This document shows positions 7,653 through 31,592 of a DNA stretch of 64,000 bases, piece after piece. The notes under the pieces are model-generated. The model saw only the letters and a list, made by a program, of their open reading frames with translations. It had not been told where the DNA came from and did not search any database. The stretch lies in NCBI RefSeq assembly GCF_011300455.1, contig NZ_CP049869.1, positions 1,949,501-2,013,500 of the forward strand, given 5' to 3'. Numbering within the stretch: position 1 is the first letter of the stretch; every line of letters starts with the position of its first letter. Source of the DNA: Sphingomonas piscis. GTDB taxonomy: Bacteria; Pseudomonadota; Alphaproteobacteria; Sphingomonadales; Sphingomonadaceae. The position numbers and the translations under genes are program-made.

Positions 7653-10562
7653 TTACCCATTCACCACCGCATCGCAGCGGTTGCAGAGGTCGCCGTCGTC
7701 CCCGACTTCCGGCAGGTGGCGCCAGCAGCGGCCGCACTTATGCTTTTCGGTCTTGGTCACGGTCAGCGCTTCGCCCGGCGTGACTGACGATACGATGAAC
7801 AGCTCGGCGAGGTCGATGTCCGCGTCGGTGACCGGCACGGTGACTTCGGCCTCAAGGCTGGAGCCGACGACCTTTTCGCGGCGGAGCGGCTCGATCGCCT
7901 CGGTGACCTGGGTGCGAAGACCGCGGAGTGCTTCCCACGAATTCGTCGCAGCGGAAGCTGCCGGCAGCTCAGGCCATTCCAGCAGGTGAACGGAGCCGCC
8001 GTCCGGGTATCGGGTGCCCCAGACCTCCTCACTGGTGAACACCAGCACCGGCGCGCACCAGCGGACAAGGGCGTGGAACAGGGTGTCGAGGACCGTGCGG
8101 TAGGCGCGGCGCTTGGGGTCCAAGGCCGCGTCGCAATAGAGGCAGTCCTTGCGGATATCGAAGTAGAAGGCCGACAGGTCGTTGTTGGCGAAGTCGGCGA
8201 TCAGGCGGGTGTAGCTGTTGAAGTCATAGTCCGCGACCGCCTGGCGGAGCTTGCCGTCGATCTCAGCCAGGAGCGCGAGCATGTAGCGCTCGAGCTTCGG
8301 CATCTCTCCCGCTGCGACCTTCTCCTCGTCGCTAAACCCTTCGAGAGCGCCAAGCAGGTAGCGGAAGGTGTTGCGAAGCTTGCGGTAGCCGTCGGCGACG
8401 CCCGACAGGATCTCCTTGCCGATGCGGTGGTCCTCGGTGAAGTCGACGCTCAAGGCCCACAGGCGCAGGATGTCGGCGCCATGCTCCTTCATCAGGTCGA
8501 GCGGGCTCACCGTATTGCCGAGGCTTTTGGACATCTTCATGCCCTTCTGATCCATGGTGAAGCCATGGGTCAGCACCGCCTTGTAGGGCGCGCGGCCGCG
8601 AGTGCCGCAGCTTTCCAGCAGGGAGGATTGGAACCAGCCGCGATGCTGGTCGGAGCCTTCGAGATAGAGGTCGGCGGGCCAGCTCAGCTCGGGCCAGGTA
8701 CCGCTGTCGAGCACGAAGGCGTGGGTGCAGCCGCTGTCGAACCAGACGTCCAGGATGTCGGTGACGCGTTCGAAATCGTCGGGATCGCGGTTTGGCCCGA
8801 GGAAGTGGGCGGCGTTTTCATCGGACCAGGCGTCCACGCCCTGTTCGGTAATGGCGGCGACGATACGTTGGTTGACGTCGGCGTCCACCAGCAGCTGGCC
8901 GCTGCTACGCTCGACGAACAAAGCGATCGGGACACCCCAGGCGCGTTGACGGCTGATCACCCAGTCGGGTCGGCCTTCGACCATGGAGCGGATGCGGTTT
9001 TCGCCTTTTTCCGGCACCCAGCGGGTGTCGGCGATGGCCTGGAGGGCCGTTTGGCGGAGGGTGGCGCGCCCCTCGACTTCGCTCGGGACGAACGAACTTT
9101 GTTCATCTTCCCCAACCCCGTTCGTGCCGAGCGAAGTCGAGGCGCGCCCGTCCAATGGACGGTCCATCGCAATGAACCATTGCGGGGTGCAGCGGTAGAT
9201 GACCTTGGCCTTGGACCGCCACGAGTGCGGGTAGGAATGCCGGAAGTCGCTGGCGGCCAGCAGCGCGCCGGCGTCGCGCAGGTCGGAGCAGATGGGGCCG
9301 TCGGGCGCGGTGAACTTGTTGTTGATGACGCTGCCTTGCCCGCCGAGCCAGGCCCAGTCGGCGCGATACTTGCCGTCCGCTTCGACCGCAAAGACCGGGT
9401 CGATGCCGTGCGCCTTGCACAGGTCGAAGTCGTCCTCGCCATGGTCGGGCGCCATGTGGACGAGGCCAGTGCCGGTGTCGGTGGTGACGAAGTCGCCGGG
9501 GAGGAACGGGCGCGGCTTGGCATAGAAACCGCCGAGGTGGTGCATCGGGTGGCGGGCGATTGTGCCGGCGAACTCGGAGCCCAGCCATTTCACGACCGGT
9601 TCTTCGGGCAGATCGTCCATCATGGCCGCCATCGCCAGGAGGTCCGCTTCGGGAATCTCCGGCACGTCGACGTCCTGATCCCGGTCCAACGCGTCGGAGA
9701 GGCGCGCGATCAAGGCATTTTTGAGTGGTGACGCCACGAGATAGCGCCGAACCGGGTAGCCCCACTCGATCAGCTCATATTCGACCTCCGGCCCATAAGC
9801 GATCGCCTGATTGACGGGGATCGTCCAGGGCGTCGTGGTCCAGATCACCGCATGGGCGCCGACCAGCTCGGGGATGGGGCTTTCGACGATCTCGAATGCG
9901 ACATCGATCTGGGTGGACGTGATGTCCTCATATTCGATCTCGGCTTCGGCGAGCGCGGTCTTTTCGACCGGGCTCCACATCACGGGCTTGGCGCCGCGGT
10001 AAAGCTGGCCGCTTTCTGCGAACTTCATCAGCTCGGCGACGATGGTGCCTTCCGCCTGATAGTTCATGGTGAGGTAGGGCTTGTCCCACCGCCCGCCGAT
10101 GCCGAGGCGCTTCAGCTGCTCGCGCTGAACGTTGACCCAGTTCTGGGCATAGGCGCGGCACTCGGCGCGGAATTCGGCGACCGGCACCTCGTCCTTGTTC
10201 AGCTTCTTCTTGCGATATTGCTCCTCGACCTTCCACTCGATGGGAAGGCCGTGGCAGTCCCAGCCGGGGATGTAGGGCGCGTCCTTGCCCAGCAGGGTCT
10301 GGGTGCGGATCACCATATCCTTGAGGATGTGGTTCAGCGCATGGCCGATGTGGATGTCGCCGTTGGCGTAGGGCGGGCCGTCGTGGAGGATGAACTTCTC
10401 GCGGCCATCGCGGGCGCGGCGGACCTGGTTGTAGAGGTCCGCCTCCTGCCAACGGCTGAGGATCGCCGGCTCCTTCTGCGGAAGGCCGGCCTTCATCGGG
10501 AAGTCGGTCTTGGGCAGGAAGACGGTGGAGCGGTAATCGGGTTTGGAAGGCGCGTCGGACAT
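7653..10562 (-). CDS. ileS: isoleucyl-tRNA synthetase
   Basis: A class I synthetase of 969 aa that charges tRNA-Ile and edits Val. HIGH is at residues 71-74, followed by the editing (CP1) domain. KMSKS ('GMKMSKSLGN') is at about residue 675, and a C-terminal Cys4 zinc site reads 'CGRCW...CNRC'. Residues about 472-500, between 'WFIAMDRPLDG' and 'TLRQTALQAI', are an insertion encoded by a palindromic element (separate entry). The start ATG at 10562 (MSDAPSKPD) is preferred over the upstream in-frame codon at 10598. The gene follows trpG closely. Confidence 0.97.
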   Translation of the reverse strand: MSDAPSKPDYRSTVFLPKTDFPMKAGLPQKEPAILSRWQEADLYNQVRRARDGREKFILHDGPPYANGDIHIGHALNHILKDMVIRTQTLLGKDAPYIPGWDCHGLPIEWKVEEQYRKKKLNKDEVPVAEFRAECRAYAQNWVNVQREQLKRLGIGGRWDKPYLTMNYQAEGTIVAELMKFAESGQLYRGAKPVMWSPVEKTALAEAEIEYEDITSTQIDVAFEIVESPIPELVGAHAVIWTTTPWTIPVNQAIAYGPEVEYELIEWGYPVRRYLVASPLKNALIARLSDALDRDQDVDVPEIPEADLLAMAAMMDDLPEEPVVKWLGSEFAGTIARHPMHHLGGFYAKPRPFLPGDFVTTDTGTGLVHMAPDHGEDDFDLCKAHGIDPVFAVEADGKYRADWAWLGGQGSVINNKFTAPDGPICSDLRDAGALLAASDFRHSYPHSWRSKAKVIYRCTPQWFIAMDRPLDGRASTSLGTNGVGEDEQSSFVPSEVEGRATLRQTALQAIADTRWVPEKGENRIRSMVEGRPDWVISRQRAWGVPIALFVERSSGQLLVDADVNQRIVAAITEQGVDAWSDENAAHFLGPNRDPDDFERVTDILDVWFDSGCTHAFVLDSGTWPELSWPADLYLEGSDQHRGWFQSSLLESCGTRGRAPYKAVLTHGFTMDQKGMKMSKSLGNTVSPLDLMKEHGADILRLWALSVDFTEDHRIGKEILSGVADGYRKLRNTFRYLLGALEGFSDEEKVAAGEMPKLERYMLALLAEIDGKLRQAVADYDFNSYTRLIADFANNDLSAFYFDIRKDCLYCDAALDPKRRAYRTVLDTLFHALVRWCAPVLVFTSEEVWGTRYPDGGSVHLLEWPELPAASAATNSWEALRGLRTQVTEAIEPLRREKVVGSSLEAEVTVPVTDADIDLAELFIVSSVTPGEALTVTKTEKHKCGRCWRHLPEVGDDGDLCNRCDAVVNG
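9063..9148. repeat. palindromic element inserted in frame in ileS
   Basis: The left arm 9063-9094 and right arm 9119-9148 are near-perfect inverted repeats sharing CTCGACTTCGCTCGG(G/C) and ACGAACG, with outer GGCGCGCC on both sides. The loop is 24 nt. Read on the minus strand it encodes STSLGTN...FVPSEVEG, about 29 extra residues in IleRS. The same core arm sequence occurs in the E2 gene at 30125-30234. It resembles the Rickettsia palindromic elements in behaviour: coding-compatible, in frame, inside a housekeeping gene. Confidence 0.85.
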
Positions 10563-10573
10563 CGCGCGCGGCT

Positions 10574-11203
10574 TTAGCGGGTGGGGCAGGGGATGCAAAC
10601 CGCAGCCCCTGCCGCCGGGTGCCTAGAGGGAGTCCATCTCGTCGACGATTGCCTTGAGCAATGTGTCGCCGCGCGGGTGAGCACCGATTCCGGGTGGAAC
10701 TGCACCGCGAACTGCTTGGCGTCGCGGTCGCTGATCGCCATCGCCATGTCGTCGATCCATGCGTGGACGGTGAATCGCTCCGGCAGCTTGCGGGTGCAGA
10801 GCGAATGGTAGCGGCCGACGCGGAAGGGGTTGGGGACGGAGGCGAAGGCGCCCTGGCCGTCGTGGGTCAGCGCCCAGCTCTTGCCGTGGACCGTCTCGCC
10901 CGCGCGCTCCACCGTGCCTCCCGCCTCATGGACGATGGCCTGGTGGCCGAGGCAGACGCCGAACACCGGCACCTTGCCCTTGGCCTTGCCGATCAGCTCG
11001 ACCATGCAGCCCGCGTCCTGCGGCTCGCCGGGGCCGGGGGAGAGGACGATGGTGGCGTTCGTCTCCTCCGCCTGGCGGAGCGCCTCGTCGGCGGCGATGT
11101 CGTTGCGCACCACCTTCACCTGCTTGCCCATCAGGCGAAAGCATTCGACCAGGTTGAAGGTGAAGCTGTCGCGATTATCGAGCAGCAGGATGTTGTCGCT
11201 CAT
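10574..11203 (-). CDS. trpG: anthranilate synthase component II (glutamine amidotransferase), frameshifted at 3' end
   Basis: This subunit supplies ammonia from glutamine to TrpE. The Cys84 nucleophile lies in 'VFGVCLGHQ', and the His-Glu pair is in 'VQFHPES'. The ATG at 11203 overlaps the trpE stop (ATGA). After 'HPESVLT' the frame as read becomes unrelated ('ATHCSRQSS...'). Adding one base at the CC of 10669-10670 restores 'GDTLLKAIVDEMDSL' and a stop at 10623-10625, the normal TrpG end. The as-read protein is 209 aa; the restored one would be 193 aa. Confidence 0.9.
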   Translation of the reverse strand: MSDNILLLDNRDSFTFNLVECFRLMGKQVKVVRNDIAADEALRQAEETNATIVLSPGPGEPQDAGCMVELIGKAKGKVPVFGVCLGHQAIVHEAGGTVERAGETVHGKSWALTHDGQGAFASVPNPFRVGRYHSLCTRKLPERFTVHAWIDDMAMAISDRDAKQFAVQFHPESVLTRAATHCSRQSSTRWTPSRHPAAGAAVCIPCPTR

Positions 11204-29023: not shown

Positions 29024-29266
29024 ATGACGGAACTTAGCGAAAAGCAGCGCGATGCGCTGGACGACGAGAAGTTCGCCTTTCCAAAAGAACGCAAGATGCC
29101 GATCGAGGATGCAAGTCACGTCCGCAATGCGGTGGCGCGCTTCAATCAGGTCGAAGGCGTTTCCGACGGCGAACGCGACGCAGCGTGGAAGCGGATCAAG
29201 GCCGCGGCGACGAAGCACGGCGTCGAGCTGAATGAGAGTAGCTGGCGCGAGCTTAAGTCGAACTAG
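29024..29266 (+). CDS. DUF6582-like small protein
   Basis: An 80-aa charged protein: 'LSEKQRDALDDEKFAFPKERKMPIEDASHVRNAVARFNQVEGVSDGERDAAWKRIKAAATKHGVEL'. This matches the short family seen in many proteobacteria in which a 'FA.P..R..PI.D..HV..A..RF.Q' motif is followed by a helical tail. The ATG is behind AAGGAGAATGCG. Function unknown; no signal or membrane segment. Confidence 0.85.
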   Translation: MTELSEKQRDALDDEKFAFPKERKMPIEDASHVRNAVARFNQVEGVSDGERDAAWKRIKAAATKHGVELNESSWRELKSN

Positions 29267-30579
29267 GCGCTAAGCAGCCGAAGTGGGTTTTCGATCAGCG
29301 CCTTCATGGCCTGAAGAAAGCTCGCCGCGTCCCAGCCGTCGACGACGCGGTGGTCGCAGGACAGGGACAGGTTCATCCGCTTGCGAACCTCGATCTCGTC
29401 GCCCACCGGGACGAGCTTCTCCTCGATCTTGTTGACGGCGATGATTGCGACTTCCGGCCGGTTGATGACCGGCGTCGAGGTGATGCCGCCCATCGGCCCG
29501 AGGCTCGACAGGGTGATTGTCGAGCCCATCAGTTCGTCGCGTGTCGCCTTGCCGGTGCGCGCTGCCTCCGCGAGACGAACCGCTTCAGAAGCGATCTGCC
29601 ATACGCTCATGCCTTGAGCATTGCGGATGACCGGCACCATCAGGCCGCCCGGAGTCTGCGTCGCCATGCCGAGGTGCACCGCGCCATGCCGCGTGACCAC
29701 CATCCCCTCATCATCGAAGGTGGCATTGAGCATCGGCCAGTCGGCAATCGCCTTGCCCATGGCGGCAATCAGGAAGGGAAGCAGCGTCAGCTTCGGCTGG
29801 TCGCCTCTGTCCCGGTTCATCATCGCGCGCGTGTCTTCAAGCGCGGTGACGTCGAACTCCTCGACGAGTGTGAAGTGCGGAATCCGGCGCTTCGCCTCCG
29901 CCATATTCTCCGCGATCTTGCGGCGGAGGCCGACGACCTTGATCGCCTCGTCGGCACGGGCGGCCGAGCCCCGGCCGGAGACGCTGCCGCCATTGTAGAG
30001 CAGGTAAGTGTCCAAGTCGGAGTGGCGAATGCGGTCGCTATTGGTGCGGACGTGGGCAAGGTCGATGCCGAGGTCGCGGGCGCGCTGGCGAACAGCGGGA
30101 GAGGCGAGGACTTTTCCGTCAGTTGAACCCCCTACCTCGTTCGTCCCGAGCGAAGTCGAGGGGCGTTGCTTCATCGCCGGTGCTTCACGCACCTCGACTT
30201 CGCGCTTCGCGCTACGCTCGGCACGAACGGGTTCTAAGGTTGGCTCTACGTCAGTGGTTGGAAGCTCTTCCTCCATCGCTGCCGTGGGTTCCACCGCGCC
30301 ATCGGCCAGCGGCACTTCCTCCGCCGCAGCCGCATCACCGCCCGTGTCCAGCACCACCAGCACCGACCCGATCGGCACCAGATCGCCGACCTCGCCCGCC
30401 AGCTCGACCACCGTGCCCGCGACCGGCGATTCCATCTCCACCGTCGCCTTGTCGGTCATCATGTCGGCAAGCTGCTGGTCTTCCTCGATCCGGTCGCCCA
30501 CCTTCACGTGCCAGGCGACGATCTCCGCCTCCGCAATGCCCTCGCCGATGTCGGGGAGCTTGAATTCGTACCTAGCCAT
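29263..30579 (-). CDS. bkdB: branched-chain 2-oxoacid dehydrogenase E2 (dihydrolipoyl acyltransferase)
   Basis: A 438-aa E2 subunit. The lipoyl domain (residues 1-80, lipoyl-Lys in 'MMTDKATVEMESP') is followed by a long linker, a peripheral subunit-binding domain ('VLASPAVRQRARDLGIDLAHVR') and the catalytic domain with 'SCDHRVVDGWDAASF' (His/Asp). The linker holds an inserted palindromic element (separate entry). The ATG at 30579 overlaps the E1beta stop by one nt (TGATG). The BCKDH-type E1 partners point to branched-chain keto acids. Confidence 0.93.
   Translation of the reverse strand: MARYEFKLPDIGEGIAEAEIVAWHVKVGDRIEEDQQLADMMTDKATVEMESPVAGTVVELAGEVGDLVPIGSVLVVLDTGGDAAAAEEVPLADGAVEPTAAMEEELPTTDVEPTLEPVRAERSAKREVEVREAPAMKQRPSTSLGTNEVGGSTDGKVLASPAVRQRARDLGIDLAHVRTNSDRIRHSDLDTYLLYNGGSVSGRGSAARADEAIKVVGLRRKIAENMAEAKRRIPHFTLVEEFDVTALEDTRAMMNRDRGDQPKLTLLPFLIAAMGKAIADWPMLNATFDDEGMVVTRHGAVHLGMATQTPGGLMVPVIRNAQGMSVWQIASEAVRLAEAARTGKATRDELMGSTITLSSLGPMGGITSTPVINRPEVAIIAVNKIEEKLVPVGDEIEVRKRMNLSLSCDHRVVDGWDAASFLQAMKALIENPLRLLSA
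30125..30234. repeat. palindromic element inserted in frame in the E2 gene
   Basis: The left arm 30125-30161 contains CGTTCGTCCCGAGCGAAGTCGAG; the right arm 30192-30234 contains CTCGACTTCG, 12 extra bases, then CGCTCGGCACGAACG; outer GAACCC/GGGTTC completes the dyad. The core is the same as the ileS element. On the coding strand one arm is read STSLGTN, identical to ileS, and the other in a different frame (RAERSAKREVEV), both without stops. It lies in the linker between lipoyl and E3-binding domains. Confidence 0.82.
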
Positions 30580-31592
30580 CAGGCCTCCAGCACTTTCTTG
30601 AGGGCCGTCCGCATGCGGATCGGGCCGGGGAAATAGATCCATTCGTAGGCGTGCGGGTAGGGCGTGTCCCAACCGGCAACGCGAACCACCGGCGCTTCGA
30701 GATGGTAGAAGCAGCGTTCCTGCACCAAGGCAGACAGCTCGGCGCCGAAGCCGCTGGTCCGCGTCGCCTCGTGCACGACCAAACAGCGGCCGGTCTTCTT
30801 CACGCTTTCCTCGATGGTCTCGATGTCGAGCGGAAGAAGGGTGCGCAGGTCGATCAGCTCGCCGTCGATGTCATTTTCTTCCAGCGCTGCCAGCGCGACG
30901 TGAACCATCGTGCCGTAGGCAAGGACCGTTACCGCCTCGCCGGGGCGGACGATTGCGGCCTTGCCCAGCGGCACGGTGTAGTAATCGTCCGGAACCTCGC
31001 TCGCCGGGTGCTTCGACCAGGGCGCCACCGGCTTGTCATGGTGGCCGTCGAAGGGGCCGTTGTAGATGCGCTTGGGCTCGAAGAAGACCACGGGGTCCGG
31101 ATCTTCGATCGCCGCGAGCAGCAGGCCCTTGGCGTCGTAAGGGTTGGACGGAATCACCGTTCGGAGGCCGGACACGTGCGTGAACAGGCTTTCCGGCGAT
31201 TGGCTGTGCGTCTGCCCGCCGTAAATGCCGCCGCCGTAGGGCGAGCGGATCACCAGCGGCATCGTCCACTCGCCCGCCGTGCGATAGCGCATGCGCGCCG
31301 CTTCGGACACGATCTGGTCATAGCCCGGATAGATGTAATCGGCGAACTGGATCTCGACGACCGGCTTCAGCCCATAAGCCGCCATGCCGATGGCGGTGCC
31401 AATGATGCCGTTCTCGCTGATCGGCGTGTCGAACACGCGGGTCTTGCCGAACTGTTGCTGCAGCCCGTGCGTGGCGCGGAAGACGCCACCGAAATAGCCG
31501 ACGTCTTCGCCGGCGATGACGATACGGTCGTCCTGCTCCATCGCGCACTGGAGGCCATGGTTGATGGCCTGGATCATGTTGCGCGCGGTCAT
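30579..31592 (-). CDS. bkdA2: branched-chain 2-oxoacid dehydrogenase E1 beta
   Basis: A 337-aa transketolase-like subunit forming the E1 heterotetramer. 'GEDVGYFGGVFRAT', 'FDTPISENGIIGTAIGMA', 'QFADYIYPGYDQIVSEAARMRYRT' and 'VIRSPYGGGIYGG' are the BCKDH beta motifs, and the C-terminal domain has 'EATRTSGFGAELSALVQE'. It lies between E1alpha (4-nt overlap) and E2. Confidence 0.95.
   Translation of the reverse strand: MTARNMIQAINHGLQCAMEQDDRIVIAGEDVGYFGGVFRATHGLQQQFGKTRVFDTPISENGIIGTAIGMAAYGLKPVVEIQFADYIYPGYDQIVSEAARMRYRTAGEWTMPLVIRSPYGGGIYGGQTHSQSPESLFTHVSGLRTVIPSNPYDAKGLLLAAIEDPDPVVFFEPKRIYNGPFDGHHDKPVAPWSKHPASEVPDDYYTVPLGKAAIVRPGEAVTVLAYGTMVHVALAALEENDIDGELIDLRTLLPLDIETIEESVKKTGRCLVVHEATRTSGFGAELSALVQERCFYHLEAPVVRVAGWDTPYPHAYEWIYFPGPIRMRTALKKVLEA

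Follow-up and report, generated by a model that had tools for sequence, protein, structure and literature searches.

How does a palindromic repeat come to lie in frame inside the gene for an essential enzyme, and what spreads it? We addressed this question in a 64,000-nucleotide (nt) stretch of Sphingomonas piscis DNA (assembly GCF_011300455.1, contig NZ_CP049869.1, positions 1,949,501 to 2,013,500; here called the window), in which ileS, the gene for isoleucyl-tRNA synthetase (IleRS), carries an 86-bp palindromic element. The element consists of two opposed units that resemble repetitive extragenic palindromic (REP) sequences, and a 23-mer from its left unit stands on both sides of a standalone GIY-YIG nuclease gene in the same genome. 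Most standalone GIY-YIG genes sampled in the genus were flanked by inverted palindromes. On balance, we favor the reading that the ileS element is a gene-less REP-like doublet in a tolerant loop and that the GIY-YIG protein probably spreads its cognate palindrome, a role that we propose by analogy with known REP systems.

The initial annotation had described inverted repeats that add about 29 residues to IleRS. The repeats are real, with 29-nt arms that are 93% complementary and lie 24 nt apart (Table 1), but they do not simply form one symmetric inverted repeat; they are two opposed REP-like units, each itself a hairpin. The insertion and its frame were observed directly as annotated: the ileS open reading frame (ORF) stays open through the element, and the protein reads ...MDRPLDG-RASTSLGTNGVGEDEQSSFVPSEVEGR-ATLRQ.... 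The database copy of ileS (P0002) begins 12 codons downstream of the mechanical start. Chance origin of the palindrome is excluded because the arm pattern, with three matches in the window, averaged 0.00 matches over 100 shuffles and because codon-shuffled ileS genes gave no such inverted repeats. When the IleRS protein was compared with its own genome, there was one full-length match at 100% identity, and the other two matches listed (seven in all) were 28%-identical pieces, so that the decorated gene seems to be the sole full-length ileS of the genome among the matches listed. We infer that the decorated IleRS is active. A related element lies, as the initial annotation had noted, in the gene for a 2-oxo acid dehydrogenase E2 protein with lipoyl, E3-binding, and catalytic domains (family search), where an exact copy of the 23-mer is paired with a longer unit. 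An Rfam scan of positions 8900 to 9350 found no family above the gathering score; four sub-threshold names, the mir-H4 precursor among them, look like chance hairpin matches and were rejected.

The clue to a partner gene was that inverted units lay 325 to 329 bp apart in four genomes with a GIY-YIG nuclease gene between them. We then ran the test from the nuclease side by searching 71 genomes of the genus for PF01541. From the matches listed, the sample held 79 standalone genes and 11 uvrC genes; the listing has at least three further standalone matches (G003:C33, G015:C31, and G022:C1:2041572) that are not among the 79. Each locus was scored by the best inverted repeat between the 220 nt upstream and the 300 nt downstream of the domain, and a score of at least 14 counted as flanked. 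By this measure, 70 of the 79 standalone genes were flanked by inverted palindromes (median score, 25), with one incomplete locus whose flanks were misplaced (L288) scored as not flanked. The same score was reached by none of the 11 uvrC genes, 1 of 400 random placements, and none of 29 short coding-like ORFs of other kinds. Of 395 pairs made by exchanging flanks, 34 reached it. The Tyr, Gly, Arg, His, and Glu columns of the GIY-YIG domain were conserved across 76 domains. NCBIfam gave no name for the three proteins tried; we take the standalone proteins to be COG2827-like.

In the genome of the window, the only standalone GIY-YIG gene listed (~G000:C1:117432-117824) is bordered on each side by an exact copy of the ileS 23-mer, which places a nuclease gene between inverted cognate palindromes within the same genome and goes beyond the initial annotation. 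At this gene, the right hairpin extends into the 3′ end of the nuclease ORF, where it encodes a C-terminal tail in the STSLGTN frame (L291, ~1776 to 1884). In G008, the nuclease gene is flanked by a CTGAGCCTGTCGAAG core that is also present in that genome's own ileS insert. Several other flanking palindromes start with CGTCAT and end with CCA or CCCAG. Across the sample, nuclease subfamily was associated with palindrome family: 42 of 68 genes shared their palindrome with the nearest protein neighbor of less than 70% identity, against 5.0 expected, and a Mantel test of nuclease against palindrome gave a rho of 0.325, with 0.138 the best of 500 permutations. This matching test omits 11 of the 79 rows, nine scoring below 14 and two with a short domain.

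The palindrome itself is a dispersed repeat. A search of the 2.72-Mb genome for CTCGACTTCGCTCGGGACGAACG found further copies, 5 exact and 11 at up to 3 mismatches, and none for the reversed control. A looser pattern of this family, here called family A, was present in 31 of the 71 genus genomes (reversed control, 0). The stem covaries over 213 units: one pair reads C-G 130 times and G-C 72 times (96% paired), and the adjacent pair is C-G in 153 and T-A in 50 (95% paired). Because of this covariation we regard family A as a REP-like hairpin. Its 132 clusters comprise 77 doublets, 53 singlets, and 2 triplets, and 104 of them were not called intragenic. The GAACGG ends lie outside in 66 of the 77 doublets (− + orientation), often with the units 8 or 19 to 20 nt apart, and the nuclease flanks have this same orientation. 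The reverse arrangement (+ −) was found in 10 doublets, the ileS copy among them. Family A thus has the structure of REPs and of REP doublets forming hairpins (REPINs), as a dispersed imperfect hairpin with compensatory stem changes that occurs mostly as intergenic doublets and singlets. As a side observation, + − doublets were intragenic in 7 of 10 cases (5 of 8 without two added ileS loci), compared to 10 of 66 for − + doublets.

These copies bear on whether the ileS insert could be a hypervariable loop shaped by ordinary drift, its palindrome a coincidence or an assembly artifact. Many relatives do have a long loop with no detectable palindrome. We nevertheless give this explanation practically no credence, as it is refuted by the dispersed exact copies of the same 23-mer elsewhere in the genome and genus; codon-shuffled genes yield no inverted repeats this strong, and other genomes carry a family-A insert in ileS in the same frame.

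Table 1. Features of the palindromic elements and their host genes in the window
Feature	Position	Strand	Remarks
Whole palindromic element, REP-like doublet	9063..9148	.	86 bp, in frame in ileS
Left REP-like unit	9066..9094	+	Ends ...CTCGACTTCGCTCGGGACGAACG; identical 23-mer on both sides of GIY-YIG gene G000:C1:117390-117741
Spacer between both units	9095..9118	.	24 nt
Right REP-like unit, opposite orientation	9119..9147	-	From sequence
ileS ORF, isoleucyl-tRNA synthetase	7653..10598	-	981 aa from mechanical start; Pfam and homology
2-Oxo acid dehydrogenase E2 ORF	29263..30672	-	Second element in linker
Exact 23-nt unit copy, E2 linker	30138..30160	-	Sequence match
Second, opposite unit, E2 linker	~30193..30229	+	~14 extra nt in loop; read by eye

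We compared this system with REPINs and the REP-associated tyrosine transposases (RAYTs), taking the RAYT criteria from the available portions of PMC2817692 and also of PMC3116915 and PMC8266576. Both have short imperfect hairpins in inverted pairs that are mostly intergenic, an enzyme gene between two inverted copies, a match between enzyme and palindrome, and a cognate copy number that tracks the presence of the enzyme. Unlike in REPIN/RAYT systems, a GIY-YIG nuclease stands in the place of a Y1 (HuH) transposase, and family-A units carry GTTCG and no GTAG at the hairpin foot. The Y1 transposase domain PF01797 had no match in the genome of the window, for which reason we rejected a RAYT as the mobilizer, and 3 of the 71 genus genomes had one match.

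Such repeats could still be selfish DNA moved by something else, either a RAYT of another or past strain or gene conversion, with GIY-YIG genes using them as insertion sites, terminators, or regulatory hairpins. Some genomes with many copies lack a standalone GIY-YIG match, and homing endonucleases were the first known GIY-YIG domains (PMC1564403, in the part available), which would fit genes that home into repeats. One locus looks like such an event. At a site in G016, a palindrome-nuclease-palindrome unit lies between two genes, whereas a single symmetric palindrome occupies the place in three relatives (G010, G051, and G060) and two others (G019 and G020) have neither nuclease nor palindrome; a sixth genome, G053, is without a contiguous site. 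Judged by eye, joining the outer halves of the two flanks would give something like the single palindrome. The presence or absence of the nuclease at this site is directly observed and could have arisen in two ways, by insertion of the gene into a palindrome or by its loss through an exchange between the two flanks. Against a mobilizer of another kind stand the lack of a Y1 transposase match in 67 of the 70 other genus genomes as well as in that of the window, the fit of nuclease subfamily to palindrome family, and the excess of own over exchanged flank pairs. We consider such a mobilizer unlikely, though it is the strongest competitor of a GIY-YIG agent. The GIY-YIG domain, its catalytic-type residues, and the presence or absence of the gene at one site recall GIY-YIG homing endonucleases, but no intron or intein context was seen and the nuclease gene lies between its own palindromes.

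Some individual nuclease loci showed further features. A flanked standalone GIY-YIG gene lies ~220 bp upstream of the ileS match in G017 (G017:C1:1618387-1618608, L334), and the ileS of that genome has a family-A insert. In Sphingomonas parapaucimobilis, the GIY-YIG gene (L421, 701 to 1021) overlaps the downstream RNA methyltransferase gene, which runs from 1018 onward, and long open frames extend beyond the GIY-YIG domain at L274 and L285. Overlaps of the RNA methyltransferase type and extended frames are perhaps a recurrent landing place.

To see how general the pairing is, we located GIY-YIG loci outside the genus by hidden Markov model, leaving out L401, which has too little flank. Flanked loci numbered 13 of 30 in a sample of the order and 13 of 27 in a sample of the class. 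Among 11 named records, chosen by hand from 45 listed, 8 were flanked: those of Azospirillum lipoferum 4B, Sinorhizobium meliloti, Neorhizobium, Shinella, Aeromonas caviae, Methylobacterium bullatum, Sphingomonas parapaucimobilis, and Neisseria gonorrhoeae. In the last of these, the flanks are CGTCATTCCCGCG...CGGGAATC repeats of the dRS3 kind. Genomes with the cognate nuclease type had more copies, counted with the two flank copies subtracted and with nuclease types set by eye, both for family A (P = 0.003) and for CGTCATTCCCGCG (P = 9 × 10−5). At least three copies of family-A or CGTCATTCCCGCG palindromes were present in 26 of 37 genomes with at least two GIY-YIG matches versus 8 of the 34 others. 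The link between copy number and nuclease is not strict.

A group of REPs without a transposase has been described, the CGTC super-family, defined by a CGTC tag, a stem of 8 to 9 bp, and a CCA-like tail (PMC3733652). According to the sections of that paper available, it includes neisserial dRS3 and the Rickettsia palindromic elements (RPEs) RPE-4 and RPE-6; it is mostly alphaproteobacterial, sphingomonads included; its in-gene doublets code for 20 to 30 amino acids (aa); and its hosts include truB, dnaE2, and tRNA synthetases (S. alaskensis, E. litoralis, and X. oryzae). Table 1 of PMC3733652, a broad survey, gives no transposase association for the super-family. The ileS element is like these CGTC REPs in being an in-gene doublet in a tRNA synthetase host with no transposase link. 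We rejected membership itself, as family A has CGTCC or CGTGC (CGTG in one arm), no CGTCAT...CCA frame, and no CCA tail. In our data, CGTC-type units flank GIY-YIG genes, and A. lipoferum, S. meliloti, and N. gonorrhoeae, listed as CGTC carriers in those sections, have flanked GIY-YIG genes; no nuclease partner is reported there.

In-gene palindromes are therefore already known, also in tRNA synthetases. Among the open-access papers searched or listed, supplements excluded, we found no paper pairing GIY-YIG with REP palindromes, no report of a multi-family hotspot in IleRS, and no match when the repeat letters were looked for in papers; the GIY-YIG survey PMC1564403 contains no word starting with "palindrom". 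The nuclease gene flanked by the ileS arm and the pairing of GIY-YIG genes with palindromes did not appear in the literature searched.

Other IleRS genes suggest why the doublet could settle in ileS. The set of 97 comprised 29 genes, that of the window included, and 68 of 80 named loci; the other 12 named loci were left out, as was L047, because none of them had a [CN]TPQWF motif in a long-enough frame. These genes held 32 inverted repeats scoring at least 14, compared to 0, 0, and 0 in three rounds of codon-shuffled genes. Two of the 32 are near the N terminus of the open frame and may be untranslated. The remaining 30 fall at three sites of the reference protein, residues 334 to 338 (6 repeats), 458 to 460 (18 repeats, the site of the window's insert), and 827 to 837 (6 repeats). 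With weaker palindromes included, 23 of the 97 genes have a repeat at the middle site, belonging to about seven families (A to G, sorted by eye), a multi-family hotspot that the initial annotation had not foreseen. The outer two sites take palindromes, many of the CGTC type, and the middle loop mainly other families; CGTC-type units are thus also present in ileS of relatives. Families D to G (e.g., CCTCCCGCTTGCGGGAGG, in 35 of 71 genus genomes and with 36 copies in G019) insert in ileS of L026, L054, L087, L112, and others.

We placed the inserts on an IleRS tree from a quick search over the 924 columns with residues in at least 70% of rows, a filter that removes the insert columns. Classes A to G were assigned by eye from the loops, and regular-expression classes were not used since class E also matches native GEGG. 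The 23 carriers required 23 changes, or 22 if only presence was scored, and 50 label shuffles gave 22 or 23. Because the labels fit the tree no better than when shuffled, repeats at the middle site show no detectable sharing by descent, with frequent gains or losses, and close relatives differ in their inserts (L064/L119, L055/L063, and L097/L111). Among 119 loops of close IleRS homologues, only 10 had the first-frame peptide (STSLGTN/FVPSEVEG), so it is not a feature of most IleRS proteins; the patterns for the second and third frames had no match. The shortest loops of the interval are 25 to 31 residues, including those of the non-sphingomonads L116 and L128, whereas the window's loop has 56. 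The solved IleRS structure 8c9e has just 3 residues between the aligned segments at the insert site. In an AlphaFold2 model of the window's IleRS (mean predicted local distance difference test [pLDDT] score, 75.4; predicted template modeling score, 0.65), insert residues 472 to 497 have a pLDDT below 50, which suggests that the inserted segment is probably disordered.

The reading frame of in-gene copies shows which inserts survive. By codon statistics of the flanks, trained on the 97 ileS genes, 28 of the 132 family-A clusters were called intragenic; the rule is lenient (flank score above 0 and the same best frame on both sides, with the wrong-frame 99% point at 0.235), and two of the 28 (L027 and L104) are ileS loci added by hand. 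All hosts but one (L232, without an NCBIfam or Pfam match) had a protein-family match or were ileS (27 of 28), and in L257 the domain (aroQ) begins after the element. By NCBIfam and Pfam, the hosts are 2-oxo acid dehydrogenase E2 (four clusters), ileS, carA, and error-prone DNA polymerase dnaE2 (three each), acyl-CoA ligase, murD, and mtaB (two each), and a sucB-like E2, truB, oligopeptidase B, sufC, recF, dnaE, and coaBC (one each). Some of these copies may be shared by descent. Of 47 in-gene units, 35 read STSLGTN/FVPSEVEG, 9 read VRPERSRG/LDFARDER, and 3 are in the third frame (P = 1.5 × 10−8 if units are independent). Counted by hand at the level of host genes, 11 of 16 had the first frame only (P = 0.006), 2 were mixed, and 3 had other frames. 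No stop codon occurs in any of the six frames of the family-A unit, so the bias is a filter on the peptide, as purifying selection on the protein would leave.

The initial annotation had suggested that the palindrome tolerates or selects coding insertions. Tolerance is borne out by about seven families at one IleRS loop, by one frame in 35 of 47 units, and by the loop disordered in the model. Selection for coding sites is not, given that 104 of the 132 clusters were not called intragenic and that purifying selection on the protein would produce the same frame bias. The insert could also be kept for a benefit to the enzyme, such as regulation or stability, beyond mere tolerance. Different repeats in the same loop and a biased peptide frame might be read in this way. 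We find it improbable, since the inserts vary in sequence and length and scatter on the tree like shuffled labels, as in neutral turnover, the loop is modeled as disordered, and two further IleRS loops take repeats. The IleRS loop is thus a natural insertion-tolerance experiment in an essential enzyme, in which selfish DNA supplies new disordered segments to core proteins, with a visible reading-frame filter.

We know of no mobile agent for Rickettsia palindromic elements. The likeness to RPEs that had been proposed for the ileS element is supported: it is a dispersed palindrome, lies in frame in other genes too, and behaves alike. Its site is a conserved ORF whose frame is kept, at a position that the model and the solved structure together indicate is flexible or exposed. 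The available parts of the RPE literature describe RPE-1 to RPE-7 similarly, as in-frame palindromes in conserved genes at solvent-exposed sites with different families in orthologues, and list RPE-7 in the IleRS of R. japonica (PMC3767692); the likeness is one of description.

A mechanism can be proposed in which the parent element is a hairpin, a GIY-YIG nuclease gene, and a second hairpin. The GIY-YIG protein would nick or cut its cognate hairpin, as RAYT transposases act on REPs, and repair or copying after the cut would spread hairpin and gene. Doublets would be gene-less derivatives resembling miniature inverted-repeat transposable elements, and one of them would have landed in the tolerant IleRS loop. 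An insert would survive there if it is a multiple of three bases with an open frame and a hydrophilic, probably disordered peptide, and in-gene copies in general would persist where they are read as a neutral hydrophilic peptide in a loop. We see even chances for the broader proposal that standalone GIY-YIG endonucleases mobilize those REP palindromes of Proteobacteria that lack a RAYT (family A, the CGTC super-family, dRS3, and perhaps RPE-4, RPE-6, and RPE-7), with the nuclease gene between hairpins as the parent and doublets, that of ileS included, as gene-less offspring. If true, this would be a second, unrelated kind of REP-associated element, and with a matched GIY-YIG partner, how RAYT-less palindromes spread could be tested with a single purified protein and a single oligonucleotide.

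Several results weigh against a GIY-YIG agent. Cleavage and mobilization of palindromes by the nuclease, every step past the association, are what we infer by analogy. Exchanged flank pairs also reached the threshold at times, as given above. Of 57 loci sampled outside the genus, only 26 were flanked, and the higher figure of 26 of 38 needs a post hoc split by eye that sets aside SLX1/YhbQ-like proteins (0 of 19). Three of the 11 named records, from Sphingomonas paeninsulae, Photobacterium, and Rhizobium sp. K1/93, were unflanked. Eight genomes (G051, G060, G071, G011, G077, G079, G019, and G085), some of them incomplete assemblies, have at least three palindrome copies with fewer than two GIY-YIG matches. 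Families D to G make up 14 of the 23 inserts at the middle ileS site, and by eye none was noticed flanking any of the 79 GIY-YIG genes. The + − arrangement of the ileS doublet is the rarer one and differs from that of the nuclease flanks, and the single palindrome in G010, G051, and G060 could be a remnant after gene loss.

In the genome of the window, the GIY-YIG match of uvrC (G000:C1:2476181-2476408) lies in a frame of 243 aa, compared to ~650 aa in many relatives, possibly through a frameshift or a sequencing error.

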